Shown here piece after piece: positions 12,420 through 29,063 of a stretch of 34,545 nt of DNA. A program made the position numbers and the translations under genes. Source of the stretch: Actinosynnema sp. ALI-1.44 (GTDB lineage: Bacteria > Actinomycetota > Actinomycetes > Mycobacteriales > Pseudonocardiaceae); the NCBI RefSeq assembly GCF_001984155.1, contig NZ_MTQO01000017.1:1-34545 (forward strand). Direction: 5' to 3'. Position 1 is the first letter of the stretch. Every line of letters begins with the position of its first letter. Under the pieces are notes generated by a model. That model was not told where the DNA came from, did no database searches, and saw only the letters and a program-made list of their open reading frames with translations.

Positions 12420-12435
12420 CCGGGGGCTGGGGCGA
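12420..12435 (-). promoter_or_regulatory. C-rich leader box upstream of the ECF gene
   Basis: TCGCCCCAGCCCCCGG in the sense of the ECF gene, about 96 bases before its start. Identical 16-mers occur at 25238-25253 and 29048-29063, with variants at 14629, 18106, 19949 and 20835. Against the 29048 copy the similarity extends to about 32 bases (12414-12445, four differences). Function unknown. Confidence 0.7.
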
Positions 12436-12788
12436 CAACACGAGCTTGACAACATCGCGCGGACAGCATCCCGTTCCCAGTTGCGGCAGCAGCTCCGTCG
12501 TGCACGTACAACCGTCCGCACATGCTTTGTGTAGAAGCAGCGTCATGAAATCCACGCCGGATGCGGGGGCGCGGACGAGACGTATCGACGACTGCGCGAC
12601 AACCGACCACACAGGACGGAGCGGTTCGTGGTCCGAGTGGCTCATGTTCCTTGTGCATCCATTCTCTGTTGGTTGACTGGCGTTGCGCGAGTGGAGAAGG
12701 AATGCCGGGCTCATGTCTTGAGCCACGGGACACCGCGCTGGTGCTGGATGCGTTTCTCTGGTCTCGGGGGGCTGACCCAGCAGATGGT
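12436..12788. other. intergenic, no gene seen
   Basis: Between the ECF leader box and the stop of the next GAF-ANTAR gene. Probably holds the ECF promoter. The long plus-strand frame across it runs antisense through 12789-13337. Confidence 0.4.
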
Positions 12789-13550
12789 TCAGTGCAGCGC
12801 CTGTCCGTGTGGGGACACCTGTTTGTGCGCCACGATGGCGTCGATGTCAGCCTCGCCTTCGGCGACCATGCGAGCGACGTCGGACAGGCGCAAGTTGTTC
12901 GATCGGCTGTAGCCGCGCAGCGCGACGAACGCGGTTTGCATGTCGACGTCAGCGTGGGCGGACAACACACCCTTGGCCTGCTCGATGACGATTCGCGAGT
13001 TCAGTGCGGTCTGCAACTGCCTGGTCAGGATCGCGTTGTCGTCGATCGCGCGGTGCTGCAACACGCCGATCGTCGCGACGTCGGCCAACGCTTGGCCCAG
13101 GTTCACGCTGATCTCGTCCACACCGTTGGACTCGGTGTCAAGCAGGTTCAACGCGCCGATCACGGTCTGGCGCAGCCGCATCGGCACCGCGTGCGTGGCG
13201 CTGAACCCCGCCTCGCGAGCGGCCAGGACGAACCGGGGCCACCGGTCGCCATCGTCCGCGAGGTTCGCACTGGACACGGGCAGCCCGGTTCGCACACAGT
13301 CCAGACATGGGCCGTCATCTGCCTGGACGGCGAATAACTCGACCAGCCTGGCCCGCTCGGAGGACGCGGCGGCCATACGCAACCCGCCCTGCTGGTCCGA
13401 GAGCACTACTCCGGCCGCGGCGACATCCAGCAGTTCCACGCAACGCTCGACGAGCATGTTCAGGAACTCGATGATGTCGAACTCGTCGATCAAGGTGTCC
13501 GCCAGTTCGACGAACACCCGCGCCAGTCGCTGTTCATGACGGTGGTTCAC
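12789..13550 (-). CDS. GAF-ANTAR response regulator, type A
   Basis: 253 aa from GTG 13550. GAF domain with Cys pair C82/C85 in GPCLDCVRTGLPV and HAVPMRLRQTVIGALNLL; ANTAR domain with EQAKGVLSAHADVDMQTAF and RGYSRSNNLRLSDVARMVA. Follows the type-B gene at 13579 by 28 bases on the same strand: the third B-then-A pair of the window. The ribosome binding site is modest (GCAGG). Confidence 0.92.
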   Translation of the reverse strand: MNHRHEQRLARVFVELADTLIDEFDIIEFLNMLVERCVELLDVAAAGVVLSDQQGGLRMAAASSERARLVELFAVQADDGPCLDCVRTGLPVSSANLADDGDRWPRFVLAAREAGFSATHAVPMRLRQTVIGALNLLDTESNGVDEISVNLGQALADVATIGVLQHRAIDDNAILTRQLQTALNSRIVIEQAKGVLSAHADVDMQTAFVALRGYSRSNNLRLSDVARMVAEGEADIDAIVAHKQVSPHGQALH

Positions 13551-13578
13551 CGGTGCCTGCTTTCCTTGACTGTCCGAA

Positions 13579-14283
13579 TCATTCCTGTGTACCCAGCAAG
13601 AGCTGGCGGCTCACGATCCGCCGGGCCACCGCGGCCAACGGTATGTCGTTCGCGTAGGCGTGGGCGCGGATCCGCAGCAACGCTTCCTGCATGCTGACGC
13701 CCAACTGGTCGCGGACCATCCCGGACGCCTGGTGGACCTCGGCGTGGATGTCGGAGATCCACCCGAGGTCGTCCGGAGGGTGCCCGGCGATCTCGTCCAG
13801 CACCGCCTCGAAGGCCAGCTCGGCCAGCACCAGTCCGTCGACCGCCTGCGGCTGGCTCAGCGAACCTGTGGTGGCCCGGTGGCAGTCAAGTGTTCCCAGC
13901 CCGATCACTCCCAGCTGCAGGGGGAACGCGAACACCGCTGCCGCACCCAGGGCCAGCGCACCTGAGGCGAATGCGGGCCACCGCGCCGTGGCCAGCGCCA
14001 GATCGGGCACCATGACCGGCACGCCGCCGGTGACCGCGGACAATCCTGGCCCCTCGCCTACCGTGAGCTGCAGTTCCTCCAGCCCGGCGGCGACCGCGTC
14101 GGTGGCGTGTGCCAGGCGCTGCTGCGCGTCGGGAGCCCCCGGCCGGTCCATCAACGTGATCCCGGCACCGCTGACCACGAGCTCCGACACCGCCAGCATG
14201 CAGATCCTTGTCAACGCCACAGCCTGGCCGTTGTCGTTTGCTGCCAGCAGCGCACGCATTCGCTCGCGGCGATTCTCGGTCAC
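13579..14283 (-). CDS. GAF-ANTAR response regulator, type B, Cys-less
   Basis: 234 aa from GTG 14283, placed to match the other type-B proteins; the frame runs further to 14358. GAF domain with GLEELQLTVGEGPGLSAV and FAFPLQLG, ANTAR with HQASGMVRDQLGV and EALLRIRAHAYANDIPLAAVA. Unlike its two paralogues it has Gly where they have Cys in GEGPC, so any role of that Cys is lost here. Probable first gene of an operon with 12789-13550. Confidence 0.9.
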   Translation of the reverse strand: MTENRRERMRALLAANDNGQAVALTRICMLAVSELVVSGAGITLMDRPGAPDAQQRLAHATDAVAAGLEELQLTVGEGPGLSAVTGGVPVMVPDLALATARWPAFASGALALGAAAVFAFPLQLGVIGLGTLDCHRATTGSLSQPQAVDGLVLAELAFEAVLDEIAGHPPDDLGWISDIHAEVHQASGMVRDQLGVSMQEALLRIRAHAYANDIPLAAVARRIVSRQLLLGTQE

Positions 14284-14461
14284 AGCGTCACCGGCTTGAG
14301 TTCGCAGGCGCTGCTGACCCGACTGCCGTCGTGGAACCAGCGGTTCTCGGCGTCGCACCGATGGTTCGGCACCGGGCGCCGGGCATGCGGTCGCCGTTTC
14401 CCCGAGTCGGCGGGCGAGGCGCTCTTCCCCCGGACCAACGGTCGCCTCGCGCGATATCGAG

Positions 14462-14590
14462 GTGGGGGACGCACCTGGCGGTGGTGGCCGCGATCAGCTT
14501 GACCACCACCATCTGCATCGAGGTCTTCTCACCAGGCAGGATGTCCATCGCGAAGCGAGGATGGGGGGAATTTCGAACGACGGTAGTCAC
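14462..14590 (-). pseudogene. N-terminal relic of a fatty-acid desaturase gene
   Basis: From GTG 14590 (GGAGG eight bases before) the minus strand reads through LPGEKTSMQMVVVKLIAATT, which parallels MLAGEKSRTEMFLVKLFAIV near the N-terminus of the intact desaturase at 24224-25198. Homology stops after about 35-40 residues; no His boxes follow. The leader box at 14629-14644 lies 39 bases before the start, the same distance as in the intact gene (40 bases). Confidence 0.68.
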
Positions 14591-14628
14591 AGAAATCGCC
14601 TCCGAGCGTCGGCCATGGAACTCAACCG

Positions 14629-14644
14629 CCGAAGTCTGGGGCGA
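14629..14644 (-). promoter_or_regulatory. C-rich leader box, variant, upstream of the desaturase relic
   Basis: TCGCCCCAGACTTCGG, matching the box upstream of the intact desaturase in 12 of 16 positions by my count, at the same distance from the start codon. Confidence 0.6.
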
Positions 14645-15164
14645 TCAATGCTGATCGGCGCGCCACTGCGTCACCGGATCGCGTGCCTCTCATGGTAACC
14701 CGGTACCCGCTCTCGTTCATGATCGAACGGCGACAGGTGTAGCGGAGGCATCCAGCGCAGTCGGTCACGACACCATCATGCCCCTGCGGTGCCCGCGTTG
14801 CCGTCTCCTCCACCCACCAGCGGTCCGCCATTCGCGCGGCTGAGGGTGCGTTATCGGTCCGCCGGATCTACTGTTGGTTCCCCGAAGATGCCGATGCTGC
14901 TCCGTTCCCTGGTGGCGTCCATGCAAGACGATCAGGAGCTGCACGTGTCGATGACCCATGAGCTGACCGCTACCACCCTCACCGACTTGTCGGTCCTAGT
15001 CTCACATCCCACTTGGCGCGGATTCGCGTTGCACAGCCTCGTGATCGCCGCCGTGTACAGGTGCGGTGTGCGGTCTCTTCGGCTGCCGCGAGGATTGAGG
15101 GAGACATCGTGTCCACGATGGACCCACGACGCAGCCGGGCTGATCTATGCGGGGCCACACCGGC
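14645..15164. other. decayed region, no intact gene
   Basis: Lies between the desaturase relic and the DUF5994 relic. A plus-strand frame is open from 14789 into the relic, but its first 120 codons show no family resemblance and no good ribosome binding site. Confidence 0.4.
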
Positions 15165-15295
15165 GTCATGACACAGCGGCTCCTGGCAACGTTGACGGAG
15201 CGTGGTGGCCTTGGTCAACCGACCCAGCGATGGAGTTTCCGGCACTGGTCATGGCGTTGAGCTCGTGGGTTGGACCGGCACGTCACGTGGCCTAG
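15165..15295 (+). pseudogene. DUF5994 gene relic
   Basis: Plus-strand frame with TAAPGNVDGAWWPWSTDPA and MEFPALVMALSSWVGPARHV, then a stop. It matches NAAPGHVDGGWWPRSTDSAT and EFPALVATLTSTWGPISRVG of the DUF5994 protein at 23652-24227. Only about 40 residues of a family usually 150-190 aa long remain. It lies on the opposite strand from the desaturase relic, unlike the intact pair, so a rearrangement took place. Confidence 0.68.
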
Positions 15296-15507
15296 CGCCT
15301 CGAAGACAGCACAGCCGCGGAAACCCTTTTTCGCCGATGGTATTTCGCACGGAAGAACGACCTAACACGGGGATTCACTCATGACACCGCCAGTTGTGAC
15401 GACCACACCGGACATCGAGACCCGCGTGAAGCTGAGACGCCGTCACCGCATCTTTCTGAGCTGCGGTCAGATCAAGACCCCAACCCGCCGAACTGAGTGC
15501 CATGAAG

Positions 15508-15537
15508 CCGGGCCACCTCACGAACGAGGCGGCCCGG
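15508..15537 (-). terminator. hairpin downstream of a beta-helix gene
   Basis: Stem CCGGGCC..CTC / GAG..GGCCCGG with two unpaired bases on each side and a six-base loop, starting about 29 bases after the stop codon at 15566. No clear U-run; it may end transcripts from both sides. Confidence 0.65.
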
Positions 15538-15565
15538 TTTGACTGTTGTGGTCGAACGGCTTCTG

Positions 15566-16396
15566 TTATCCGATGCAACCGGGAACGGGGGAAGGGCTGC
15601 TGACGCAGTTGGTCGGCGTGTTCGCTGTCACCGTGGAGGTGTTGAGCGACGCCGATCCGGCGACGTAGTAGATCCCACCGGGGTTCACGGTCGCGGTGTT
15701 GGTGTTGACCACGCTGCTGGTGAGGGTGAGCGTGCCGTTGACGCTGGCGATACCGGCGCTCTGATTCGCGGTGTTGTTCTTGACGGTGCTGCTGGTGAAC
15801 GTCGTCGCAGCCGGGGTGCCCGTGCTGTAGAGGGCGCCGCCGCGGCCGCCTGCGGTATTGCCGGACAGTTGACTGCCGGTCAATGTGACCGCACCGAAGT
15901 TCAGGATGCCGCCGCCGTCGTTGTGGCCGGTCGTGACGGCCTGGCCGCCGCTGAAGGTGATCGCCTTGAGCGTGGTTCCGCCGGTGGGACCAACCTGGGC
16001 GATGCGGAACGCGGGCGCCGCAGCGGAGCGGGCGATGGTGTTGGCGTTGCCGTCAAGGGTGATGGGGGTGGTGATGATCGGGAGCCCTGCAGGGCCGTTC
16101 ACCCCGTCGTCGCCATGGCTGGCTGTGAGGGTGTACGTGCAGCCCGGGGTCAGGGTCACTGTCCCACCACCGGCCGCGTTGGCCGAGGTCACCGCAGTGA
16201 CCAGTGCTGATTCGGTGCACGGGACGGACGCGTTCTGGGCATGGGCCGCCGCGGGGAGAAGGAGAGCCGTACCGGTGGTCAGAATGGCGACCCCGGTAAG
16301 GGCAGAATTGTGCGATTGTGTCGCATGATGACTTTCATGGAGCTGAGACCGATGGTGGTTGAGTGAAAAACTCAAACGTCCCACAGGAGCGGTCAC
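15566..16396 (-). CDS. secreted right-handed beta-helix protein
   Basis: Up to 276 aa. Hydrophobic signal segment (GVAILTTGTALLLPAAAHA) with cleavage after AHA; the mature part is Gly/Asn/Thr-rich with repeating short strands (NFGAVTLTGSQLSGNTAGGR, SSTVKNNTANQS, LTLTSSVVNTNTATVNPGG) typical of parallel beta-helix proteins. Cys pairs sit near the mature N-terminus (VPCTES, PGCTY) and at the end (NCVSSPSPVPGCIG). The GTG at 16396 gives an unusually long N-terminus; an ATG near 16339 in another frame (MKVIMRHNR) suggests a possible frameshift in the signal region. Related to 18898-19767, including the terminal NCV...VPxCxG motif. Function unknown. Confidence 0.8.
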   Translation of the reverse strand: MTAPVGRLSFSLNHHRSQLHESHHATQSHNSALTGVAILTTGTALLLPAAAHAQNASVPCTESALVTAVTSANAAGGGTVTLTPGCTYTLTASHGDDGVNGPAGLPIITTPITLDGNANTIARSAAAPAFRIAQVGPTGGTTLKAITFSGGQAVTTGHNDGGGILNFGAVTLTGSQLSGNTAGGRGGALYSTGTPAATTFTSSTVKNNTANQSAGIASVNGTLTLTSSVVNTNTATVNPGGIYYVAGSASLNTSTVTANTPTNCVSSPSPVPGCIG

Positions 16397-16661
16397 CGGC
16401 GGTCATGAACAACCACTCCAGAGGCTACACCAGAATGTCTGAAATAGCTAGACCCACGGCTTTTTGCCCGCGATTGTCGCATAGAATTTGCGAATGTGCG
16501 CGATATGTGACCTAGTCGGCTGCTTTGTTTTTCCAGCTTCTGCGGCCGCTCGGTGAACGCTTGCTCCCGTCGACGTACAGATCGTGTCTCACGGGTGCGT
16601 GGAGGTGCCTCCTGCGGCGGTGAACTGGTGAACAGTCCACCGCCGCACCGGCACACCGCGG

Positions 16662-16715
16662 CTGCTGACCACCCCACTGGAGGCGCCGCGGCGCCTCCAG
16701 TGGGGTGGTCAGCAG
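16662..16715 (-). terminator. 54-bp perfect palindrome at the end of the Gly-rich gene
   Basis: Two 27-base arms (16662-16688 and 16689-16715) are exact reverse complements with no spacer; the centre is GGCGCCGCGGCGCC. The stop codon of the Gly-rich gene (16709-16711) lies inside the right arm. As RNA this is a very stable hairpin and probably the terminator, although no U-run follows. Confidence 0.8.
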
Positions 16716-18040
16716 GAGCAGACGCCGCCGTTGTTGACTCCGGCGACGCCGTTGGCGCCGACGATTCCGTTGGCGCCGAGGACGATGTTGATGACGTTCG
16801 CGCCCGTTCCGCCGTTGATGCTTCCGGAGTTTCCGGCTCCACCGGCACCGAGGGCGCCGCCGAGGCCGCGGGCACCGCCGGGTCCGGCGCAGCCGGTGCC
16901 CCCGTTGCCCCCTGCGCCGCCGTTGCCGCCTTTGCCGCCGGTGGTGGTGATGTTGTCGGCGCCCGCGTCGCCGTTGACGGTTCCGGAGTTGCCGATTCCA
17001 CCGGCTCCACCTGCTCCGCCGACGCCGCCCGCGCCGCCAGGTTGGGTGGCGCTCATGCCGTTGCCGCCCTTGGCGCCGATACCGCCGTTGCCACCCAGGC
17101 CACCGGTGGCCTTGAGTACGTCGGCGCCGTCCCCACCGTTGATGGTGCCCGAGTTGCCGACGCCGCCGGCGCCACCGGCACCGCCGATGCCACCACCGCC
17201 GCCGCCGTACCCGCAGCCGCCGACACCACCAGCGGCGCCCAGACCACCCGCGCCGCCGGTCGCGGTGAGAGTGTCAACGCCTGCGTCGGTGGTGCCGCCC
17301 CTGATGGTCGCGGAGTTGCCGACACCACCAGCGCCGCCCGCACCACCGATCCCACCGGCTCCGGCTCCGCCAGCGATCGCACCGCTGGAGCCACCGACGC
17401 CGCCCAGGCCGCCGTTGCCGCCTTTGCCGCCGGTGGTGGTGATCGTGTCGTTGCCGGTACCGCCGTCGATCGTCCCGGCGTTGGCGCCGCCGCCGACCCC
17501 GCCGACCCCGCCGTTGCCGCCGGCACCCCCGGCGCCACTGGCGAGACCAGTCCCGCCGTTACCACCGTTGCCGCCGTTACCACCTGGGCCGCCGTTCACG
17601 GTGATGGTGTCCGTGCCCGCACCACCGTCGATGACTCCGGTGCTGCCGACACCGACACCGCCGGTGGCCCCGACCCCGCCGTTGCCTCCGGCGGTACCGG
17701 CTGGGGTGCCCACGGTGCCGTTCGCACCTGGGGCACCGGTAGTACCGGCGGCGCCGGTCACCCCGGTGACCCTGATCGTGTCGTTGCCGCCGAGTGCGTT
17801 GACCGTGCCGTTGACGGGGCCGCCGGTGATGGTGATGATGTTGGCGTTGCCCGTGCCAGTGAGCGTTTCACCGGCGGCGATACCGGCGGTGCAGACGAAG
17901 TTCTCGCCAGTCTGGGTGCACCCGACCGGTTGGGCGTGGGCCGTGCCCGGTGCTGCCAAGGCGAACCCGGCTATGGTGCCCAGACCGATCAAAGCCTGGC
18001 TGAGCCTGCCCGTGATTGTGCTGTGCGCTGTCGATCTCAT
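16709..18040 (-). CDS. secreted Gly-rich protein with RTX-like and PGRS-like repeats
   Basis: 443 aa; signal peptide with cleavage after TAHA (about residue 36). A Cys pair (GCTQTGENFVC) follows, then a run of units in which an RTX-like strand (GGAGTDTITVNGG, GGTGNDTITTTGG, GGDGADVLKATGG, GDAGADNITTTGG) alternates with GGN/GGA-rich PGRS-like spacers (GGNGGNGGNGGTG). The C-terminus is Cys-rich (NNGGVCSC). GGxGxDxI repeats bind Ca2+ in beta-roll proteins, so a secreted Ca-dependent fold is likely by inference. ATG at 18040 follows GGTGGAG. There is no PE domain, so it is not a mycobacterial PE_PGRS protein. It lies between the two beta-helix genes and has the leader box at 18106. Confidence 0.85.
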   Translation of the reverse strand: MRSTAHSTITGRLSQALIGLGTIAGFALAAPGTAHAQPVGCTQTGENFVCTAGIAAGETLTGTGNANIITITGGPVNGTVNALGGNDTIRVTGVTGAAGTTGAPGANGTVGTPAGTAGGNGGVGATGGVGVGSTGVIDGGAGTDTITVNGGPGGNGGNGGNGGTGLASGAGGAGGNGGVGGVGGGANAGTIDGGTGNDTITTTGGKGGNGGLGGVGGSSGAIAGGAGAGGIGGAGGAGGVGNSATIRGGTTDAGVDTLTATGGAGGLGAAGGVGGCGYGGGGGGIGGAGGAGGVGNSGTINGGDGADVLKATGGLGGNGGIGAKGGNGMSATQPGGAGGVGGAGGAGGIGNSGTVNGDAGADNITTTGGKGGNGGAGGNGGTGCAGPGGARGLGGALGAGGAGNSGSINGGTGANVINIVLGANGIVGANGVAGVNNGGVCSC

Positions 18041-18105
18041 AATCCAACTCCACCCGTGGGGTGGGTCCGGGCCGATGCCACGAACCCCGGGGAGTGGTGT
18101 GGTGA

Positions 18106-18121
18106 CCGGGGGCTGGGGTCA
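18106..18121 (-). promoter_or_regulatory. C-rich leader box upstream of the Gly-rich gene
   Basis: TGACCCCAGCCCCCGG in the sense of the gene, 66-81 bases before its start; 14 of 16 bases match the copies at 12420, 25238 and 29048. Confidence 0.62.
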
Positions 18122-18644
18122 CTGCCCGGTGCCGCTACCTGAAAGGGCACCGGATCCCACCAACACCCTCGACGTCACAGCGTCCACTTCCCCCAATCGG
18201 ATTTGAAGGCGCACATCCACGAGCCACTCGAACGCCACCCCTTTTCCCCTCAATGCGAGCCAACCGCTGCCATAAAGTAATTGCCCCTCCTTGAAAGGCG
18301 CCCAGATCGAGCAATAGTCGCCGTCCGGCGAAATTCAGTCGACGAGTACGAGAAAACTGAAAACCCAGTCGACGTGTCACTCGAACCCTGAACCCATTTC
18401 GCCGATCGGCGACATCGACTACCAACAAAGTCGCATTGTCGAAACCGACGTGCACGCACGTCACCGGGGAAGCGATGCACCGCACTCGTCAGAAGAAGCC
18501 AACTCGACGCTGATCACCGTCAGCCAGAAAGCCGCCCAGGTGTTGTCGGGTTCCTCGTTGGCTTCACCGGCGCCGTGTCCGTAGGGACGATCGTGACGGC
18601 ACCGCTCCGACCGTGCCGAACCCGGGCGGTCTCGCACTGCGAAA
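18122..18644. other. long leader/intergenic stretch, less GC-rich than its flanks
   Basis: About 520 bases 5' of the Gly-rich gene. A 116-codon minus-strand frame (18135-18485) has no ribosome binding site or domain. Base composition is closer to even than in the surrounding genes, as expected for a promoter or untranslated region. Nothing else identified. Confidence 0.4.
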
Positions 18645-18689
18645 GGCACGACCGCTCGCCAGGTGTGAGGCCTGGCAAGCGGTCGTGCC
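18645..18689 (-). terminator. strong hairpin after the 38-aa peptide gene
   Basis: Arms of 19 bases (18645-18663 and 18671-18689: GGCACGACCGCTCGCCAGG and its near-perfect complement, one G-T-type mismatch) around a seven-base loop. It starts 17 bases past the stop codon of the small peptide gene, which supports that gene being real. Confidence 0.8.
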
Positions 18690-18705
18690 GAGTCGGATTC
18701 TGGGA

Positions 18706-18822
18706 TTAGAGCGGCAGGAGGGGCCGGACGACGGCGCTGGCGGCGCCGATGATGCCCGCTGCGGCGCCGTTGACGATGCCGACCACGGAGTCGATCAGGC
18801 CGCCGATGATGACAATGCCCAT
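18706..18822 (-). CDS. 38-aa amphipathic hydrophobic peptide
   Basis: ATG 18822 follows AAGGAG at nine bases; TAA at 18706; a strong terminator lies just beyond. The peptide begins MGIVIIGGLIDSVVGIVNGA and continues with Gly/Ala/Ile-rich sequence to AVVRPLLPL. It has one Asp, one Arg and no Cys, with polar residues spaced as on one face of a helix. It has no separate leader, so it resembles small surface-active or membrane-active peptides (phenol-soluble-modulin-like in character, not in sequence) rather than a processed precursor. It is 75 bases downstream of the secreted beta-helix gene at 18898-19767 on the same strand, so probably co-transcribed. Function not known; a structural partner, toxin-like or biosurfactant role is inference. 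Confidence 0.7.
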   Translation of the reverse strand: MGIVIIGGLIDSVVGIVNGAAAGIIGAASAVVRPLLPL

Positions 18823-18897
18823 GAGGGAGTGCTCCTTACAGTGGGGTGAAACAGATTCAGGCTGTGCGCCTGACGTGATGTCACCGGGGTGGTGGGT

Positions 18898-19767: not shown

Positions 19768-19899
19768 AACGCCTTCATTTCCTGAAACACAATAGCGATG
19801 GACCGACTCGGCGCGGCGCGCCGACAGAAGGGACAACACGATGGCCGCACATGCCAAACCGATCGATGCGGGCGGCCGCGTACGATGCATCAACGCAAA

Positions 19900-19964
19900 A
19901 GACCTCGGCTCGTGATCCGTATCCGCGATTATCGCGATACGTCACGCACCGAGGTCTGGGGTTA
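19900..19964 (-). promoter_or_regulatory. terminator-like hairpin containing the C-rich box
   Basis: On the minus strand TAACCCCAGACCTCGG (19949-19964) begins a long hairpin: AGACCTCGG pairs with CCGAGGTCT at 19900-19908, and inner segments GCGTGA, CGTATC and GCGAT also pair with small bulges. A UUUU run follows directly. It could end the small-gene operon above it (20000-20827), or act as a conditional terminator in the leader of the beta-helix gene 133 bases further on. The presence of the box that elsewhere sits in leaders favours the second reading. Confidence 0.65.
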
Positions 19965-19999
19965 CAACAATCAACGTAGCCCCTCCACCCAGATGATCG

Positions 20000-20254
20000 C
20001 TACCTCGGGCCCCCAAATGGACGCATCCATCCGCCGGTGCAAACTGGCACCCGACAGTCCGGAGGGCATCGAAGCCGGACGCCGTGCATCGAACCGATCC
20101 ACGACGACCCCGACGCCAGCGCGGTCGAGCTGTCGTTCAGTCCGCTGTGGACTTCCCACTGGGCAGGCCGGCGCACCTCGGCGCGCCGAACCGGGAACAC
20201 ATGGCGGGCCGCCACGACGAGTTGCTGTCGCCCGTCGGACCCAAACCGTGTCAC
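20000..20254 (-). CDS. 84-aa hypothetical protein
   Basis: From GTG 20254, 22 bases after the stop of the previous minus-strand gene; codons are G/C-rich in the third position. Starts MTRFGSDGRQQLVVAARHVF; contains two Cys near the end (RCPPDC, PVCTGG). No family recognised. An overlapping frame (19971-20258) is an alternative. Context (third gene of a small operon, hairpin 40 bases downstream) is the main support. Confidence 0.42.
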   Translation of the reverse strand: MTRFGSDGRQQLVVAARHVFPVRRAEVRRPAQWEVHSGLNDSSTALASGSSWIGSMHGVRLRCPPDCRVPVCTGGWMRPFGGPR

Positions 20255-20549: not shown

Positions 20550-20566
20550 TGTGGCGTTACTCCTGT

Positions 20567-20827: not shown

Positions 20828-20834
20828 GCGGCCG

Positions 20835-20850
20835 CCGAGGTCTGGGGCGA
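20835..20850 (-). promoter_or_regulatory. C-rich leader box next to the Cys-rich gene
   Basis: TCGCCCCAGACCTCGG in the sense of the downstream gene. The last 13 bases are identical to those at 19949-19961. Confidence 0.62.
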
Positions 20851-21655: not shown

Positions 21656-21796
21656 TCGCGCTTTCCCGCGTTGGAAGAGCACCATCGAATTCTCGATGCG
21701 TCGGTGTTCACGCCGAGTGGACGCCGCGGCGACCACCGCGCTGCCCGGACAAACCCGGATTGTCCAACCACCTTCCACCGAGCTCGGAGGTTCCTC

Positions 21797-22921
21797 GTGA
21801 CTGCCACGCCCATCCACGACCCACTCGGTGAGCTGTCCGCGGCCGGGGTGTCGATCTGGCTCGACGACCTCTCCCGCGAACTGCTCGCCAGTGGTCAACT
21901 GGCCGAGCTGATCGCCGAGCGGCATGTCGTCGGTGTCACCACCAATCCCACGATCTTCGCCGCCGCCATGGCCAACGGCGATCGCTACACCGAGCAGTTG
22001 AGCCTGTTGTTCGGTGCGGGCACGGACGTTGATGACGCGGTAGTCGCGATCACCACCGCCGATGTGCGCGCCGCCTGTCAAGCGTTACGGGACGTCTACG
22101 ACGCCACTGGTGGCGTCGACGGCCGGGTCTCGATCGAAGTCGACCCCCGTCTCGCCCAGGACACCGCCGCCACCGTGGACCAGGCCAGGGTCCTGTGGGA
22201 GGACGTGGACCACCCGAACCTGTTCATCAAGATCCCGGCCACACGAGCGGGGCTCACCGCGATCACCACGGTGATCGGCCAAGGCATCAGCGTCAACGTC
22301 ACGTTGATCTTCGCGTTGGACCGTTATCGCGAGGTCGTGGACGCCTACCTCACCGGGCTGGAACACGCCGCAGCCGCCGGACTGGATCTCTCGGCCGTTC
22401 ATTCTGTCGCGTCGTTCTTCGTCTCGCGCGTCGACACCGAGATCGACGCCCGTCTCACCGCGATCGGAACCCCCGACGCACTCGCCGCCAGGGGCAAAGC
22501 CGCGCTGGCCAATGCCCGCCTGGCCTACCAGATGTATGAGGAGGTCATCGCCGGACCACGCTGGGCACGGCTGGCAGCCGCGGGGGCACACGCACAACGA
22601 CCGCTGTGGGCCTCCACCGGAGTCAAGGATCCGGTCTACCTCGACACCATGTATGTCTCCGAGCTCGTCACACCGGGTGCGGTGAACACGATGCCCGGTG
22701 CGACCCTCGCCGCGTTCGCTGATCACGGGAGGGTCACCGCGGACACCGTGCGCGGCAGTTATCCCGCGGCCCGTGCTCACCTCGACACCCTGGAACGCCT
22801 CGGCATCGACTACCTGGACGTCACCGACACCCTCGAACGTGAAGGCCTCGCCAAGTTCGTGACGAGTTGGAACGAGCTGAGCCGTACCGTGAGACGGGAA
22901 CTGCACGCAGCCAGGTGCTGA
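21797..22921 (+). CDS. tal: transaldolase
   Basis: 374 aa from GTG 21797, with GGAGG six bases before; the frame is open further upstream but without homology. This is the length of the actinobacterial Tal. Motifs: [13 protein letters not shown] (about 47-59), active-site strand NLFIKIPAT with the Schiff-base Lys K145, [32 protein letters not shown] and [10 protein letters not shown]. The enzyme moves a dihydroxyacetone unit between sedoheptulose-7-phosphate and glyceraldehyde-3-phosphate in the non-oxidative pentose phosphate pathway. In most actinomycetes tal sits beside tkt; here no transketolase gene is near, so this looks like an extra, accessory copy. Confidence 0.96.
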
Positions 22922-23341
22922 TGCCGACTGACTCCAAATGGTCCCTTCCACCGTTGGACACAGTGGTCAGTCCTCGTCGGCGTACATCTCCCGTGGAAGT
23001 CCCTGAGCCAGCTGATGTACCCCGTCGTCGGCCTGGTCGGACCACTGGACGACAGGATCAACTTCAAGGCCGAGTTTCGGTGGGATGAGGCGGTGGCGGT
23101 GGCCGGGCGTACACGGACCGCCGCGTCCGCCGCGAGTGGCAGGCAGGTTGCTGCTTCAGCCCGAACGTTATCGGCACCTCGTGCTGCGTCAGCGTTCGGG
23201 CCACCATGATCGCGCGGCATGGAGTCGGAGCGCGAAACCGAGGAGCGGGCGGTCATCAGCGTTCCAGGCGAAGGTGCGGCCTCTCCGATTGATGCTCGTG
23301 ACAGTACTTTGAGGACAGAACGCCGCTTCGGAAGGTTGTCG
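22922..23341. other. no recognised gene
   Basis: About 420 bases between convergent genes. Open frames on both strands lack ribosome binding sites and known motifs. No clear terminator found after tal. Confidence 0.4.
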
Positions 23342-23641
23342 TCACCTCGTTGGCCACTTGTCGAGTGCTTGTCGTAGCGCCGAAGCGATGCCTCGGAACG
23401 TGCTGCCGCTGTCGTACTGGTCGACGAGGATGTCAGTCACGCCGACGATCGCCTCTGTCGCCCGGTGGCTGGCCTTGACGAGAGCCACGGTCACGTTGCC
23501 AGGCAACTGGGATGAAGCGGTGGTGTCTGTCCCGGTCGGTTGCGTGGCCTTCCAGGCCGCGTCGACCTGTTCGAGCGCCTCGACCAGGTCTCTCCACGCG
23601 GTCAACTGGTTGGTGCTTTTCTCCGGCTCGATTCTGGTCAT
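23342..23641 (-). CDS. 99-aa hypothetical protein
   Basis: ATG 23641 with GAGGA upstream, ten bases after the stop of the DUF5994 gene. Mainly helical, begins MTRIEPEKSTNQLTAWRDLV and contains QVDAAWKATQPTGTD and STFRGIASALRQALDKW. No signal peptide or membrane segment. Last gene of the desaturase-DUF5994 operon, so linked by context to lipid or envelope work. Not recognised. Confidence 0.66.
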   Translation of the reverse strand: MTRIEPEKSTNQLTAWRDLVEALEQVDAAWKATQPTGTDTTASSQLPGNVTVALVKASHRATEAIVGVTDILVDQYDSGSTFRGIASALRQALDKWPTR

Positions 23642-23651
23642 GATCTGGTCC

Positions 23652-24227
23652 TCAGTGCGCGTGGTGCTGGGCGAGGATGTGGCCTCCCTCGGCCTCCCAG
23701 CGTTCCTCGGGCGTCTGGTCAGCGGTTCGTGGTTGAGGGGCAGTGGCGGTGTCGGCCTGAGCCTGTTCGGCGGATATGCCGTTGCTGGTGAGGATGTCTT
23801 GGACGGTGGCGGTGGTGCCTGGGTCGGCGGCTGACCTGAGTATCGCGCGTGCCGCACCGCCGGGGGTGTCCGGTGGTACGACCAGCAGGGTGATCCGCTG
23901 ACGGTTGTGCCCCGTGAGGGTGACGGTGTTGGGCTGCATGGTGCGGAAACCGTCCATTCGTACCACCCGGTCGTGCACGGTCAGTTTGCGTGCCGTGGCG
24001 GTCCACGCGTCGAGGTTGTACCCCACTCGGCTGATCGGTCCCCATGTCGAGGTCAGGGTTGCGACCAGCGCGGGGAACTCTGTCGCCGAGTCGGTCGATC
24101 GCGGCCACCAGCCGCCGTCCACATGTCCAGGCGCGGCGTTGTCCGGTTTCATCCGCAACCGGACCTCGTTGCGGGCTGGATCGTTGGGCAGTCGGAGGGC
24201 CATGTTGGCCAGGGTGTCCGTAGTCAT
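23652..24227 (-). CDS. DUF5994 family protein
   Basis: 191 aa. ATG 24227 overlaps the desaturase stop as ATGA, so translation is coupled. Contains VRLRMKPDNAAPGHVDGGWW, WGPISRVGYNLDAW and ITLLVVPPDTPGGAARAILR; the C-terminal 40 residues are Gln/Thr/Pro/His-rich. The same family occurs at 21134-21655 and as relics at 15165 and 30540. The recurring link with a desaturase suggests a shared task. Confidence 0.86.
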   Translation of the reverse strand: MTTDTLANMALRLPNDPARNEVRLRMKPDNAAPGHVDGGWWPRSTDSATEFPALVATLTSTWGPISRVGYNLDAWTATARKLTVHDRVVRMDGFRTMQPNTVTLTGHNRQRITLLVVPPDTPGGAARAILRSAADPGTTATVQDILTSNGISAEQAQADTATAPQPRTADQTPEERWEAEGGHILAQHHAH

Positions 24228-25198
24228 GCCGCGCTCCCGGTGGTGTTGAGTTTGCGGGCCAGCCGTTCTGGCCGGGGCCAGCGAACTTTGGTGGCCCAGC
24301 CGAGCTTTTCGAAGACCCAGATCAGCCGCGCGGAGATGTCGATCTGGCCACGGCGGACGCCGTGGCGTGCGCAGGTGGGGTCGGCGTGGTGGGAGTTGTG
24401 CCAGGATTCGCCCATCGACAGCAGTGCCAGTGGCCAGAAGTTGGCGGACTTGTCGCGGGCGGTGAAGGGGCGGTCGCCGATCATGTGGCAGATGGAGTTC
24501 ACCGACCAGGTGACGTGGTGCAGGATCGCGACGCGTACGAGACCGGCCCAGAAGAACGCGGTCAACGCCCCCCACCAGCTCCACGTGATCAACCCGCCGG
24601 CCACGGCAGGGGCGAGGAGCGATACGACTGTCAACGCGGGGAACAAGCGGTTCACGCGCTGGATGTCCGGGTCGGCGAGCAGGTCAGGAGCGAACCGGGC
24701 GGCGTTGGTGTGCTCTCGCTGGAACATCCAGCCCATGTGCGCGTGCCAGAACCCCTTGGCCAGCGCACCCGCCGAGGTCCCGAACAGCCACGGGGAATGC
24801 GGATCGCCCTCGCGATCGGCATAGGCGTGGTGGCGGCGGTGGTCGGCGACCCAGCCGATGATCGGTCCCTGCAGGGCCATGCTGCCGGTGACCGCGAGCG
24901 CGACGCGCAACCCGCGGGTAGCGGTGAACGCCCCGTGGGTGAAGTACCGGTGAAACCCGACCGTCACACCGAGGCAAGTCAGGGTGTAGAAGAACGCCGC
25001 GATCCCAACATCGGTCCAGCCAAGGCCCCAGCCCCACACAAGCGGGACCGCCGCGGCCAGAGCCACCGCTGGAACGATGGCGAACAGCTTGACCAGGAAC
25101 ATCTCGGTCCGGGATTTCTCCCCCGCCAGCATCGGCTGGGGACCCGCGTCCGTGTGAGCGTGATCGCGGGATGGGCGGTCGTGGACTGTAGTGCTCAC
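24224..25198 (-). CDS. membrane fatty-acid (acyl-CoA) desaturase
   Basis: 324 aa from GTG 25198. Three His boxes of the stearoyl-CoA delta-9 family bind the di-iron centre: HRYFTH (83-88), HRRHHAYAD (120-128) and HNSHH (267-271). Four hydrophobic segments (about 38-60, 63-81, 185-205, 207-227) fit the known topology. It introduces a cis double bond into a long acyl chain at the membrane with O2 and an electron donor. No ferredoxin reductase is near. The leader box at 25238 lies 40 bases before the start. Two desaturase relics exist in the window (14462-14590, 30540-30903). Confidence 0.93.
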   Translation of the reverse strand: MSTTVHDRPSRDHAHTDAGPQPMLAGEKSRTEMFLVKLFAIVPAVALAAAVPLVWGWGLGWTDVGIAAFFYTLTCLGVTVGFHRYFTHGAFTATRGLRVALAVTGSMALQGPIIGWVADHRRHHAYADREGDPHSPWLFGTSAGALAKGFWHAHMGWMFQREHTNAARFAPDLLADPDIQRVNRLFPALTVVSLLAPAVAGGLITWSWWGALTAFFWAGLVRVAILHHVTWSVNSICHMIGDRPFTARDKSANFWPLALLSMGESWHNSHHADPTCARHGVRRGQIDISARLIWVFEKLGWATKVRWPRPERLARKLNTTGSAA

Positions 25199-25237
25199 GT
25201 GTTCTGCCTCCGGGAAACGACGACTGGTTCTCCGCCG

Positions 25238-25253
25238 CCGGGGGCTGGGGCGA
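25238..25253 (-). promoter_or_regulatory. C-rich leader box upstream of the desaturase
   Basis: TCGCCCCAGCCCCCGG, identical to the copies at 12420 and 29048, 40-55 bases before the desaturase start codon and in its sense. Confidence 0.7.
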
Positions 25254-25529
25254 CCGCTGTGGGATCGGAATGGGTGGCCTGGCCACGGAATCGGCGCCAC
25301 ACGGTGCGGGGTCCCGTCAGGAGCCGCTGATCTCCACATTTGTTGTGTACCCGGCATCACTGGCGACAAACTGCCGATGAGGGGCGGGAAGGGCACATAA
25401 GCGTGGCTCTACACCGTGCACAGGCAGCGCTATCGACGTCCACACCCGCTGGCGCGTGATCGCAGGACAGCCAGATCGAATCGCTGATCGGATTGTGATC
25501 GATGCTCGCCCTCGGCACGAGGGATACCG

Positions 25530-26293
25530 ATGGCGGTGCACATCGCGGGTGAGGTGCCCGGATAGAGCAGGGCCGGTGGCAGGTCGGTGACGTGCTCCCC
25601 ACTGAGGTCGACCTCGCGGAGGAGTTCGGGGTCAGCCGACCGACCCTGCGTGAGGCGTTGAGCGCGCTTCAGTTCGCGGGATATGTCGAGTCTCGGCGCA
25701 GGCGGGGCACCGTGGTGCTCAGCGCGTCGCCGGTGCCCGGTGTCGCGCGGCACGTGGGTGCGGCCGGTTCGTTCGCCGAAGTGGTGGATTTGCTGGAAGC
25801 GCGGCTGGCCGTGGAGCCTGTCGTGCTCGCGCTGGCAGCCGCGGATCCTGATCCCGCCGCGCTGGACGAGGCTCAGGACGCGCTGTCCGGGATGGCACTC
25901 GTGGTCGGTGCGGACACCATTCCCGCGGATACTGATCACCGGCTGCATGTGCTGATCGCGCGGGTGTGCCGCAACCCGTTGCTCCGCGAGCAAGTCATCG
26001 CTCTGCTCGACCGCGCTTCGGGTCCGTTCTGGCAGCAGACGCAGGCCGTGGCCTGGCAGCCGGATGCGGCCTTGTGCCGGGAGTGGGCCGAGGACCACGC
26101 CGGGATCCTGGCGGCGCTGGAGCGGGGCGACGGCGTGGCGGCGGCAGCGATCTCGCGACGTCACCTGCTGACGGCTGTGGCGAACGCCGCGAACTGCGCC
26201 CAGATGCCCGCGTCGGAGCGGTGGCGCGTGCGGCGGCTGGCAGAGCGCTTCCACGCCGGTCGTGGACCGGCTGATCCTGATCCGGTGCCATGA
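25530..26293 (+). CDS. FadR-type GntR regulator with a probable frameshift
   Basis: The main frame gives GDVLPTEVDLAEEFGVSRPT and LREALSALQFAGYVESRRRR (winged helix-turn-helix) and an all-helical C-terminal effector domain (VVDLLEARLAVEPVVLALAA to about residue 200). Its first start codon is GTG 25592, which removes the first helix of the DNA-binding domain. From ATG 25530 (GAGGG upstream) another frame reads MAVHIAGEV; joining it to RIEQGRWQVGDVLPTE needs just one base added near 25552, and gives a normal GntR N-terminus. So either a one-base deletion broke the gene or the assembly is wrong. The ATGA overlap with the transporter gene shows they belong together, and it probably controls that operon in response to a small acid. 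Confidence 0.8.
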
Positions 26294-27057
26294 TCGGAGT
26301 CCTGCTGCTCGCGATACCCGTGGGCCTGCTGATCGGCACTGTCGGGGTAGGCGGCGTGCTGCTGCCGCCCGCGCTGGTGCACCTGCAGGGCCTGGACATC
26401 CATGCCGCGGCGGGCACGAGCAGCTGGTGTTTCCTGTTCACCGGAGTGGTCGGCACGCTGGTCTACGCCCGTCGGCACGCGATGCCGTGGTCGCTGGTCG
26501 GCAGGCTCAGCTTGGGCGCGGCACCTGCGGCGACACTGGGCGCACTGACCAACGGCCTCGTTCCCGCCAGCGTCGTCTGGCTGCTGCTGGGAGCGATCAC
26601 TCTTGGCGCGGGCGCTTATCGGCTGTACTCACGGCACCGTTCCGGCGGTGATCACACCCAGTTGCCCACCGGCACGGCGGTGGCGACCGGGGCGGTGGTC
26701 GGGTTCGGCTCGGCCCTGACCGGAACTGGTGGGCCGGTGGTGCTGGTCCCGGTGCTGCTGGTGCTGGGCATCGCGCCGTTGACCGCCGTCGCGGCCAGCC
26801 AGGTCATCCAACTGCCACTCGTGGGATTCGCGGTCCTCGGCTATTCGACCACCGGATCCGTCCACTACGGACTGGGCACAGTGCTCGGTGTTCTCGCCGC
26901 GGTCGGCGTCTTCGTCGGTGGGCTCATCACCTCGCGGCTCGAATCCCGCAAGCTCCACTCGATCGCGGCGGTGACCCTGGTCGCCGTCGGCATCCTGCTG
27001 CTCGTCCTGCCCGTCATCCCGATGCCCGGCGCGGATATCGAAAGGACAGTCCCATGA
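26290..27057 (+). CDS. TauE/SafE family membrane exporter
   Basis: 255 aa; eight or so hydrophobic segments in two halves, each starting with the family's Gly-rich pattern (GTVGVGGVLLPPALV; GFGSALTGTGGPVVLVPVLL). Family members export sulfite, sulfoacetate or other organosulfur anions. ATG 26290 overlaps the GntR stop (ATGA) and its own stop overlaps the ATG of the next, broken gene. A sulfur-related substrate would fit the PLP enzyme downstream (D-cysteine desulfhydrase-like), but the substrate is inference. Confidence 0.9.
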   Translation: MIGVLLLAIPVGLLIGTVGVGGVLLPPALVHLQGLDIHAAAGTSSWCFLFTGVVGTLVYARRHAMPWSLVGRLSLGAAPAATLGALTNGLVPASVVWLLLGAITLGAGAYRLYSRHRSGGDHTQLPTGTAVATGAVVGFGSALTGTGGPVVLVPVLLVLGIAPLTAVAASQVIQLPLVGFAVLGYSTTGSVHYGLGTVLGVLAAVGVFVGGLITSRLESRKLHSIAAVTLVAVGILLLVLPVIPMPGADIERTVP

Positions 27058-27589
27058 CCACTCTTGTTACGAGACTCGGGGCGGTTTCCGCGGGTCTCGC
27101 TCGCCCTGACCCCGACACCACTGGACGCGTTGCCCCAGCTCAGCGACAGGCTCGGGCCCAGTGTCCTGCTCAAACGCGAGGACCTCACCGGGTTCGCGCT
27201 GGGCGGGGACAAACCGCGCAAGCTGGAGTACGAGATCGTCCACGGCCTCCAGAGCAACGCGGACATCATCGTCACCTGCGGTTCCATGCAGAGCAACCAT
27301 GCCCGGCTGACCAGCGCCGCGGCCCGCAAACTTGGCCTCGACTGCGCGGTGGTGCTCAGCCGCGACGACTACGACGAGTTCCAGGGCAACCTGCTCACGA
27401 TGCGGCTGCTGGGCACCGATGTGCACATCGTTGACACCGACGACCACTGGGCGCTCGAACCGCACGCCCTGCGACCAGGTCATCGTGCTGCACTCCGGCG
27501 GCGTACCAGCCCTGTTCGCCTACCACGACGCACTCGAACAACACCTCAACACCAGACACGAGCACCGCTCGGACACCCAGCAGCTGTGA
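27054..27589 (+). pseudogene. D-cysteine desulfhydrase / ACC deaminase-like PLP enzyme, broken
   Basis: ATG 27054 (AAAGGA upstream) starts MTTLVTRLG, then the reading moves to another frame giving RFPRVSLALTPTPLDALPQL, LLKREDLTGFALGGDKPRKL (PLP-binding Lys) and TCGSMQSNHARLTSAAARKL. One extra G in the GGGG near 27076 explains the shift. After HWALEPHAL about 150 residues are missing and a different frame gives the normal C-terminus VIVLHSGGVPALFAYHDALE. Intact enzymes are about 330 aa. The gene cannot make a working enzyme. It ends the GntR-exporter operon. Confidence 0.85.
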
Positions 27590-27807
27590 CGATCGCAGAG
27601 TGCTGTCGAGCCGCATTCCACGAACAACCTCGACCTGGTGGCCGGGCGCGTCTGTTCCGCTGGAACCGAACAGCTTCTGCTCGCAGGGTTTCTGCCGGGT
27701 GCCACCGATTTCGCTATAGTGGTAAGCACGCCGCTGCCCGCGGTCGACCCGGTCGGGTTTGCTGGATGGATCAAAGCGTGCCAACCACGGAAGCCAGCGG
27801 CAAAACG

Positions 27808-27840
27808 CGGGAGCATGCCACAGAAGAGGGCATGCTCCCG
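27808..27840 (-). terminator. terminator of the CHRD gene
   Basis: Perfect 12-base stem CGGGAGCATGCC/GGCATGCTCCCG with a nine-base loop; on the minus strand it is followed by CGTTTTG. It starts 18 bases after the stop codon at 27859. Confidence 0.85.
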
Positions 27841-27858
27841 CAGAACGAACCGGCTGGA

Positions 27859-28581
27859 TCAGCGGCGGTTCAGGCCGAGGTCGAGACCGAGGCTGAGGCC
27901 CAGATTGCGGTCATAGCCGCCCTGGTGCGGTCGGAAGGTGCCGCAGGCGGCCGGTGAGGTCGCTTCCAGTGGCAGGGACGGGTCCAGGTCGCTGGGAGCG
28001 GCACCGTCGTACTTGCCGCTGTGGTTCGGATCGATGCCGTGCACCACGAGGACTGCCTTGCCCGTGCGGATGCTGGCGGCTACGTCACTGGTCACTGTGA
28101 TGGTGCGCTTGTAGGTATAGGAGGTGTTTTTGGGGGTGGGGAAGCGGTCCACCGCCAGGCCGCTGGCGGGACTGGTGTCTCCGCTGGTGGTCAGTGAAGT
28201 GCCGATGTGGCCGTAGAAGGGGTGCCCTTCGGTGGTGTTGACGATGCCGTCTCCGCTGGTGTCGGCCTTCTGCGATGGGCAGCGACCCTGAGCGCCGATG
28301 TGGATGTGCTGGGCGTGCGGGGCCTTGGCCAGAACGCCGCGGGCAGTGAACGCGATTGTCGCCTGGTTACCACGCAATACGAGCACGCCGTGACCTCGGG
28401 CACCGCTGTGGTTGAGCTGGCGAAGCTGCACGCTGGCGGCAACGACACCTTTGCCCTTGTCAGAGTTGCCATGGTCGCCGTGGCCCTCGTGTGCCGAGGC
28501 GATTCCGGGGGTAACGAACGCCAGTCCGAGCGCGACCGCTGGAACAGCCACGCGGGCCGCTTTGGTCTTGAACGTCGACAT
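27859..28581 (-). CDS. secreted CHRD-domain protein
   Basis: 240 aa from ATG 28581 (AGGAGGAAC upstream). Signal peptide to about residue 30 (cleavage after ASA), then a His-rich stretch HEGHGDHGNSDKGKG. CHRD-like motifs: HAQHIHIGAQGRCP (about 90-103) and VLVVHGIDPNHSGKYDG near residue 190. A possible acidic loop, DTSGDGIVNTTEGH, resembles a dockerin/EF-hand Ca loop. The last 12 residues form a Gly-Leu repeat (LGLSLGLDLGLN). CHRD proteins are extracellular; role in bacteria unclear, metal binding likely from the His content. Confidence 0.85.
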   Translation of the reverse strand: MSTFKTKAARVAVPAVALGLAFVTPGIASAHEGHGDHGNSDKGKGVVAASVQLRQLNHSGARGHGVLVLRGNQATIAFTARGVLAKAPHAQHIHIGAQGRCPSQKADTSGDGIVNTTEGHPFYGHIGTSLTTSGDTSPASGLAVDRFPTPKNTSYTYKRTITVTSDVAASIRTGKAVLVVHGIDPNHSGKYDGAAPSDLDPSLPLEATSPAACGTFRPHQGGYDRNLGLSLGLDLGLNRR

Positions 28582-29047
28582 TGATCGTTCCTCCTGTTGG
28601 TTGGTGCGTTTGTGCCCAACACCAGGAATTCGGACTCGACGCCGCTCCGGATGGGTGGTGCTGGCACCGCATCTCCACGCCTGCCCACCGGTGACGCCCG
28701 GATCCCCAGGATGTTTAAATCAAACCCGATACGCACGAGTAGAAAACGACGTCGACGAGCGTGGCGGGCGTTGGACGGGAGTGTGGTGGCCCGGGGACCG
28801 GCCACTCCAATCGCGTACACCGTCGCCGTTACCCATACGCACCAACACTCTGATCATCATGGGGCATCCTCTGGGTGAAGTGCACCCTCTTTCGATCATG
28901 CGGGTTGTGATCGATGTAGCGGCCACCCTGGTGACAGCCTCCACGCACGCCAGGTAGTCCGAAACGGACGGTTGCGCTCTCCGTTCGAGTTGCCGCTGAA
29001 GACTGAGAGTGGCACGCTAATCATGCGATACTTACATGCTCGCGTCA
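28582..29047. other. intergenic with possible relics
   Basis: Between the divergent CHRD gene and the ECF relic. On the plus strand around 28770-28810 RWTGVWWPGD and, in the next frame, RALDGS faintly recall the DUF5994 VDGxWWP motif, but the match is too short to call. No intact gene. Confidence 0.35.
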
Positions 29048-29063
29048 TCGCCCCAGCCCCCGG
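29048..29063 (+). promoter_or_regulatory. C-rich leader box upstream of the ECF relic
   Basis: TCGCCCCAGCCCCCGG, the only plus-strand copy, in the sense of the relic that follows. Similarity to the 12420 copy extends over about 32 bases. Confidence 0.68.

Follow-up and report, generated by a model that had tools for sequence, protein, structure and literature searches.

A candidate two-state leader RNA near tandem ANTAR genes in Actinosynnema and other Pseudonocardiaceae

The window analysed here is the whole of contig NZ_MTQO01000017.1 (our C11; 34,545 nucleotides, nt) from the 11.7 Mb genome of Actinosynnema sp. ALI-1.44, and its subject is a C-rich box of 16 nt, which a preliminary description of this DNA had reported ahead of seven genes or gene relics, always in sense orientation. 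Its positions and orientations were borne out. Three exact copies of TCGCCCCAGCCCCCGG lie at 12420-12435 (-), 25238-25253 (-) and 29048-29063 (+), variants within three mismatches of the 16-mer lie at 14629-14644 (-), 18106-18121 (-) and 20835-20850 (-), and the copy at 19949-19964, TAACCCCAGACCTCGG, contains the core with more than three mismatches; all seven face the downstream gene or relic. Each box falls within a 19-nt hairpin, termed P1, which consists of five base pairs closing a nine-base loop of consensus CNRGMCCYY.

One of these leaders is that of a fatty acid desaturase (24224..25198, -; Pfam FA_desaturase 1.1e-19), whose closest named match is from Kibdelosporangium aridum. Here P1 reads UCGCC-CCAGCCCCC-GGCGG (25235..25253, -; 51.5 bits with our leader model R2), and the Shine-Dalgarno (SD) region CCCGGAGGC (25206..25214, -) is complementary to the 3' half of the box. 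At its full 390 amino acids the open reading frame (ORF) extends upstream through the box; since homology and the SD site place the start at 25198 (a likely GTG, giving 324 amino acids), the box is part of the leader and not of the coding sequence. The desaturase relic has the hairpin UCGCC-CCAGACUUC-GGCGG (14626..14644, -; R2 46.5 bits) and an SD sequence GGAGGC (14598..14603, -); close to the latter, GGCGAUU can also pair with GAUCGCC of the box. Besides the leader, some 35 N-terminal codons are still recognisable by eye in the relic; tblastn missed it at 1e-3, and it is accepted on the basis of a 72% DNA repeat of 53 nt and a close likeness to the leaders of intact desaturases on contig C19 and in K. 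aridum.

The leader of an extracytoplasmic function (ECF) sigma factor (ORF 11767..12360, -, probable start 12324; Pfam Sigma70_r4 and Sigma70_r2 over cut-off) has the hairpin UCGCC-CCAGCCCCC-GGUGG (12417..12435, -; R2 34.1 bits). Its SD-like partner, CCCGGAGCC (12388..12396, -), lies after the box and before a small upstream ORF of 22 codons (VMGQKPLFG..., 12317-12385, -); the stop codon of this ORF overlaps the probable sigma factor start at 12324, which suggests translational coupling between the two. A hairpin UCGCC-CCAGCCCCC-GGCGG (29048..29066, +) stands before the ECF relic (29064-29261), for which 62% protein identity over 66 residues was found, and another, UCGCC-CCAGACCUC-GGCGG (20832..20850, -), leads the small Cys-rich protein behind the 20835 box, now placed in the RGCVC family (NF038206, 71.5 bits, cut-off 35). 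In the leader of the Gly-rich protein (16709-18040), judged to be secreted both in the preliminary description and by eye, the two arms are altered together, giving UGACC-CCAGCCCCC-GGUCA (18103..18121, -), and a copy of this box (L055) occurs in another genome of the same genus. An inverted repeat, CCGGTGCC / GGCACCGG (18126-18153), lies directly upstream of the 18106 box, with a different loop length in L055, and a perfect 27-nt inverted repeat without spacer (16662-16715) marks the end of the Gly-rich gene. Finally, the beta-helix protein leader has a weak P1, UAACC-CCAGACCUC-GGUGC (19946..19964, -; about three pairs, -1.6 kcal/mol), together with a terminator-like helix, termed T, whose 5' arm AGACCUCGGU (19948..19957, -) overlaps the P1 loop and 3' arm and whose 3' arm GCCGAGGUCU (19900..19909, -) is followed by UUUG.

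The window also contains a tandem pair of ANTAR genes, comprising a divergent first member (13579..14358, -; ANTAR 27.7 bits, cut-off 27.3), in which no GAF match over threshold was found, and a canonical GAF-ANTAR second member (12789..13550, -; ANTAR 57.5 and GAF_2 55.8 bits), assigned to the 'div' and 'can' clades of the tree described below. A second pair (1168..2721, -) consists of a divergent member at 1990-2721 and a canonical one at 1168-1935, and a third (5872..8004, +) of a divergent member at 5872-6414 and a canonical one at 6437-7189, with a further ANTAR protein at 7603-8004. The window thus holds three tandem pairs and an additional member; as the nearest relatives of two of the pairs are found in G005, a genome of the same genus, and not in the window, the three are not the product of a recent triplication.

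The boxes are concentrated in this contig. Matches to the 16-mer with up to three mismatches number seven in the window against 1.68 expected (sd 1.19), a figure reached in none of 100 shuffles; six of them are copies already described, and the seventh, at 22365 (+) with three mismatches, lies inside a called gene and looks like a chance match. When the core plus one flank, CCCCAGMCYYCGGNG, was sought genome-wide, nine places were found against one for the same pattern read backwards, of which six are in the 34.5 kb contig, two on C19 before paralogues of the same genes, and one on C47, a clustering far above chance for a genome of 11.7 Mb.

Outside the window the box is likewise a leader element, and it is not equally common within genes or in both orientations. 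Because models that include structure favour paired matches, a sequence-only model, R3, was built and scanned over 475 kb in 29 sources (24 genomes); these regions had been picked for matches to our models R1 or R2, so that the leader counts are not a random sample, although the pairing test given below is independent of that choice. By an automatic rule, 67 of the 89 R3 matches are leader-sense and 14 are near small or uncalled genes; five lie in called genes (four sense, one antisense) and three were called antisense. Two of these three precede ORFs of 310 and 102 amino acids that the simple gene caller had missed, and the third (L255) is like the desaturase leader of L250, with no intact desaturase ORF found behind it. 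In a separate survey, 80 desaturase loci were gathered by protein similarity and their upstream regions searched with the box consensus alone. A score of at least 16 out of 21 was reached in sense by 33 upstreams (antisense 2, reversed 2) and a score of at least 18 by 28 (antisense 0, reversed 0); one of the 33, L114, is doubtful, its match being 339 nt upstream, and the other 47 upstreams have no good match. The boxed desaturase records include Kibdelosporangium, Lentzea, Saccharothrix and Amycolatopsis, among others, and in most of these leaders the box ends 20-26 nt before the SD sequence. When 390 genomes of the family were scanned for the exact pattern, 21 places came up, as opposed to 2 with a control pattern; several are coding by eye, and the leaders among them are desaturase leaders, that of an ECF gene (L155, where Sigma70_r2 and r4_2 pass the Pfam cut-off) and one of TPR type (L156).

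The genes behind boxed leaders are of many kinds. They comprise desaturases of two kinds by Pfam (for the second, the fragment searched scored below cut-off), ECF sigma factors, NsdA-family TPR regulators (NF053720; the matched family names describe NsdA as a transcriptional repressor), RGCVC Cys-rich proteins (NF038206), AI-2E-type membrane proteins, STAS proteins, beta-helix and Ca-repeat-like proteins, small membrane proteins assigned to no family, and one ANTAR pair. In the last case (G025), one box stands directly before the ANTAR pair and a second before the desaturase that follows it. In another genome of the genus, a WhiB gene (Pfam Whib 81.9 bits) also has a weak box match in front of it (L193:3219-3245, -). 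Box regions of nine genomes contain a further family, weakly similar, below cut-off, to the ribosome hibernation factor HPF/YfiA (e.g. L245:7856-8239 and L246:15415-15798, with copies in seven other sources).

P1 is well supported by pairing and covariation. In a first set of 38 sequences 96.8% of stem cells are paired and three of the five pairs are altered on both sides, and in a wider set of 52 sequences 96.5% are paired. Among the 81 unique sequences found with R3 (alignment A4), 95.8% of the 405 stem cells are paired compared to 90.6% after shuffling, 16 cells are altered on both sides compared to 3.4, and the covariation score is 0.378 compared to 0.265; none of 500 shuffles was as high on any of the three measures. 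Columns 8 and 22 pair as GC in 61 sequences, AU in 12 and GU in 7 (other 1), and columns 7 and 23 as CG in 69, UG in 6, GC in 3 and UA in 1 (other 2), while shifting the partner by one to three columns leaves only 20-63% paired. U-G is the commonest outer pair, and each of the five stem positions has G-U pairs, four of them at least six times. The arms appear as UCGCC/GGCGA, UCACC/GGUGG, CCGCU/GGCGG and UGACC/GGUCA, all with the loop CNRGMCCYY, in which four of the nine columns have one letter in at least 95% of sequences; an R1 match ahead of an uncertain gene (L260 5685, +) has the arms GGUUAC/GGUAACC. Of the rows aligned, L074 was removed from A1, L074 and L118 (shifted or eight-base loops) from A2, and the chance match L092 from all; A4 was brought to 81 by removing two leaders with eight-base loops, five matches in called genes (one restored, its mirror copy being a leader) and two duplicates. 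Matches of R1 and R2 in coding sequence (e.g. L194, L196, L198, L202-L205, L207-L211 and L257:4499) were excluded from the leader sets by eye.

RNAalifold, applied to 32 leaders, returned P1 only, and the downstream helix has to be read leader by leader. In ten leaders the T helix joins box columns 13-22 through ten pairs to a site that lies 12-40 nt further downstream, 99 of the 100 cells being paired. The partner, CCGRGGU, is followed by a short U-run, and the likely start codon, in the T-type leaders examined, is more than 100 nt beyond this run, for which reasons the helix is described as terminator-like; the segment folds at -21 to -37 kcal/mol. Loop and partner change together, ACCUC occurring with GAGGU and ACCCC, found in one genus group only, with GGGGU, and the exchanges seen are U-A 7 / C-G 3 and A-U 5 / G-U 3 / G-C 2. 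Eight of the ten leaders precede beta-helix or Ca-repeat-like proteins, which look secreted by eye and gave no match over cut-off in family searches; the other two are L072b and L200 10270.

In the leaders of other type, complementarity to this half of the box is found in the SD region, CCGGAGGU and variants: ACCCCGG occurs with CCGG-A-GGU, UCCCGG with CCGGGA, and CGGACCUC with GAGGUCCG. Over 68 leaders the loop-by-SD stem score is 12.19 compared to 11.15 (sd 0.30) after permutation of the loops, with 1 of 2000 permutations as high and relatedness uncorrected. Another candidate pairing, of GATCGCC in the 5' part of the box with GGCGATC near the start codon, was seen in Kibdelosporangium and some Amycolatopsis desaturase leaders and was rejected as not general. 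Because P1 and the second helix share bases they are mutually exclusive, and folding predicts the long-range helix to be the stronger; switching between the two is likely, in our inference.

The box often appears to lie at the very beginning of the transcript. Over 106 unique upstreams there are 21 cases in which a TANNNT hexamer ends 4-7 nt before the box (gaps of 5 and 6 accounting for ten cases each), whereas 500 shuffles gave a mean of 2.4 and a maximum of 8. This would place the start of P1 at about +3, with such a start predicted in about a fifth of the upstreams examined. Many desaturase leaders have, by eye, a GTTT-N15-17-GGGTAT-like pair slightly further upstream, which we take to be of the SigB/F type.

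An all-against-all comparison of the genes in the 29 box sources identified ANTAR as the commonest family, with 51 genes (52 entries, one a duplicate) in 20 of the 24 genomes. These form 23 tandem pairs, the divergent member always coming first in the direction of transcription, together with singletons and partial copies. A tree of the 49 longer members has two clades of 24 and 25 with full support, and each of the 23 pairs contributes one gene to each clade. The canonical members have clear GAF and ANTAR domains; in eight genomes the Pfam ANTAR scores of divergent members are 25-34 bits and those of their partners 59-74, and the GAF domain of the divergent member is weak (GAF_2 27.5 and 29 bits in two relatives, cut-off 28.6). 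The same eight genomes have 4 to 24 ANTAR matches each, so the density near boxes is not general. The divergent family was also searched in the 390 genomes. Among the matches listed, 58 of 99 R2 hits (those in genomes with a listed divergent member) lie within 10 kb of such a member against 0.33 expected for genomes of 9 Mb, and with all 24 genomes of the tree and alignments left out, 17 of 41 do so against 0.12 expected.

The box occurs across the family. With an E cut-off of 0.05, which lets in some coding false positives, R2 matches 137 of the 390 genomes and 26 of 46 genera. To look beyond the family, 296 genomes of the class were searched (E up to 0.003), and five matched, including that of Actinosynnema sp. 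ALI-1.44 itself; of the other four one is leader-like (L262) and three are coding by eye. The former (L262:1505, +), in a 3.5 Mb genome of another family, has CCACC-CCGGACCCC-GGUGG before a GGGAGGT SD sequence. No known Rfam family accounts for the element: Rfam 15 gave seven matches in the window at E up to 5, none of them over a box, and no match at gathering score in 127 kb from seven sources of relatives. The window does contain, near the contig end (33032-33160, -), an ALIL pseudoknot (RF01497, 51.7 bits), a structure known as the frameshift signal of IS3-type elements. Among the open-licence papers listed for desaturase RNA motifs and ANTAR RNA in actinobacteria and for GAF-ANTAR stem-loops, titles and abstract starts gave nothing describing the box element, and no open-licence paper was found that joins Pseudonocardiaceae with a riboswitch, or ANTAR, desaturase, Mycobacterium and RNA-binding. 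In the main text of PMC8164766 there is no mention of desaturase, GAF, Amycolatopsis, Saccharothrix, Lentzea or any word in Pseudonocardi-.

The preliminary description had offered an operator, a promoter element or an RNA leader motif, with a dispersed repeat as the main alternative. The sense position of the box before homologous and non-homologous genes in other genera, the compensatory and G-U changes in its stem and the competing downstream helix support the RNA leader. We consider there to be an even chance that the box is the core of a two-state cis-acting leader RNA, probably read by the ANTAR pair. In the first state, the 5' end of the mRNA would fold as P1, which occupies the GG of the 3' arm and would leave the ribosome-binding site or the transcription path free. 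In the second, the P1 loop and the beginning of its 3' arm (RGMCCYYGG) would pair downstream with the SD region or, in the ten T-type leaders, with the CCGRGGU before the U-run, and translation or transcription would be attenuated. P1 could form first during transcription but is predicted to be the weaker helix. Which fold prevails should then depend on a factor that keeps P1 in place; this direction of control is our proposal. The most likely such factor would be the tandem ANTAR pair encoded in most box clusters, with GAF sensing and ANTAR binding RNA, an assignment that we infer from linkage. Somewhat more tentative is the further proposal that the box represents an undescribed class of ANTAR RNA target, namely one hairpin at the 5' end, with a loop of nine bases, that a divergent and a canonical member recognise together. 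It would be used regulon-wide in Pseudonocardiaceae, with SD and terminator outputs, to control desaturases, regulators of the NsdA and ECF families, STAS and AI-2E proteins and secreted repeat proteins.

Several observations weigh against this interpretation. Linkage of boxes and ANTAR genes need not mean binding: eight of the 29 sources (L193, L195, L197, L201, L206, L254, L256 and L261) contain no gene of this ANTAR family and L250 has a single one, and the divergent family is present in 323 of 390 genomes (1e-20) compared to 137 for R2, a near ubiquity that makes its presence or absence uninformative as a profile test. None of 84 leaders has two stems (3 bp or longer, with 1-25 nt between them) whose hexaloops show A1 and G4 (shuffled mean 1.98, maximum 6), and the box is rejected as a target of that type; P1, the hairpin compared with the single hexaloop, has nine loop bases and does not fit it. 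P1 has five pairs only, the outer one is unpaired in 14 of 81 sequences, the covariation counts refer to sequences and not to events, and in A4 the number of P1 pairs changed on both sides, one of five measures, does not exceed that in shuffles (2 against 1.4, 169 of 500). For T, the corresponding number is likewise not raised (2 against 1.5, 286 of 500), the U-A/C-G exchange may go back to one event within one genus, the U-run is short, and a general terminator scan raised no flag there, its limit of eight loop bases excluding the site. Within the ten T-type leaders alone the covariation of P1 is not beyond shuffles, P1 is reduced to about three pairs in two of them, and the isolated P1 fragment favours another small hairpin in three. 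The SD pairing often includes a bulge or mismatch and scores 0 in six of the 68 leaders, and its permutation test ignores relatedness and uses 16 starts set by hand.

Some of these points would suit a leader that senses a small molecule or temperature directly, or one with a different protein as its reader; the ANTAR genes would then be mere neighbours or members of the regulon. Such a leader could account for the conservation of the nine-base loop, for the two alternative folds and for outputs of both translational and terminator-like kind; desaturases could suit a membrane or temperature signal, one ANTAR pair is itself boxed as a regulon member would be, and the eight sources just named lack the pair in the stretch covered. 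An aptamer of just 19 nt would be small, however, and why boxes in many genera are linked to one specific ANTAR pair would have to be explained separately, so this explanation is judged unlikely, if worth keeping in view.

The start-site data bear on a different proposal, in which the box is a DNA operator, or an initially transcribed promoter element, bound by a transcription factor. That the box often begins near the predicted start, and that TCGCC-N9-GGCGA is an inverted repeat, a usual form of an operator, would agree with this. A dyad operator would not, however, be expected to have a conserved, asymmetric centre, a constant orientation and covarying arms, nor U-G as its commonest outer pair and G-U at every stem position; the T helix and the SD complementarity use the same letters as RNA, and the distance to the apparent -10 varies. 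A role as the -35 or -10 element of an ECF sigma factor was rejected, as no constant distance to a second element was seen, and the -10-like hexamers upstream of the box make any promoter element unlikely. Overall, the DNA-level explanation appears improbable.

Less probable still is a P1 that only protects the mRNA from decay, without switching; its predicted location at the 5' end in about a fifth of upstreams would be in keeping with this, but stability alone would conserve neither the loop sequence nor a downstream partner. The spread of the box between leaders by a dispersed repeat or mobile element, to which the exact copies in the window and the relics retaining the box might have pointed, can practically be discarded, since the part common to different gene families is a 19-nt hairpin with covarying arms, the box has been retained in desaturase leaders of Kibdelosporangium, Lentzea, Saccharothrix and Amycolatopsis, and few matches lie in called genes or antisense.

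If the two-state leader read by the ANTAR pair is correct, Pseudonocardiaceae would possess a new class of cis-regulatory RNA, and ANTAR proteins would gain concrete RNA targets. ANTAR recognition would then not be confined to hexaloops, and two unlike ANTAR proteins may act as a pair. As the boxed genes include membrane desaturases and NsdA-family regulators, the system may bear on membrane adaptation and differentiation.

Among known systems, riboswitches and SD-sequestering leaders resemble the box leaders, in which a small conserved 5' fold likewise appears to compete with an expression platform, with translational and terminator-like versions, and differ in that the recognition part of the box is 19 nt, with no known ligand and no Rfam match. 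The RAT (ribonucleic antiterminator) of the LicT/SacY type is also a protein-bound hairpin overlapping the 5' half of a terminator; it is recognised by another protein family and its hairpins have internal loops. A further parallel is with the ANTAR-target RNAs, i.e. the eut, nas and ami leaders and the actinobacterial set of PMC8164766. As described in PMC8164766, PMC3369931 and PMC8934654, ANTAR proteins keep a leader hairpin from giving way to a terminator, and those of actinobacteria can work at the ribosome-binding site; the box leader seems to call for just such an activity. The box leaders appear to share with these RNAs hairpins that exclude a terminator or lie over the ribosome-binding site and a regulon-wide spread, and where the known RNAs have an RNA-binding regulator the box is linked to ANTAR genes. 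The known targets have hexanucleotide loops with A1 and G4; PMC8164766 describes two stem-loops with a linker of 2-25 nt, and PMC8934654 gives a single hexaloop as the minimal site, in contrast to the one nine-base-loop hairpin of the box. With two six-base A1/G4 loops found in none of the 84 leaders, the box leader may work like an ANTAR system while standing, by its RNA features, outside the target family described so far.

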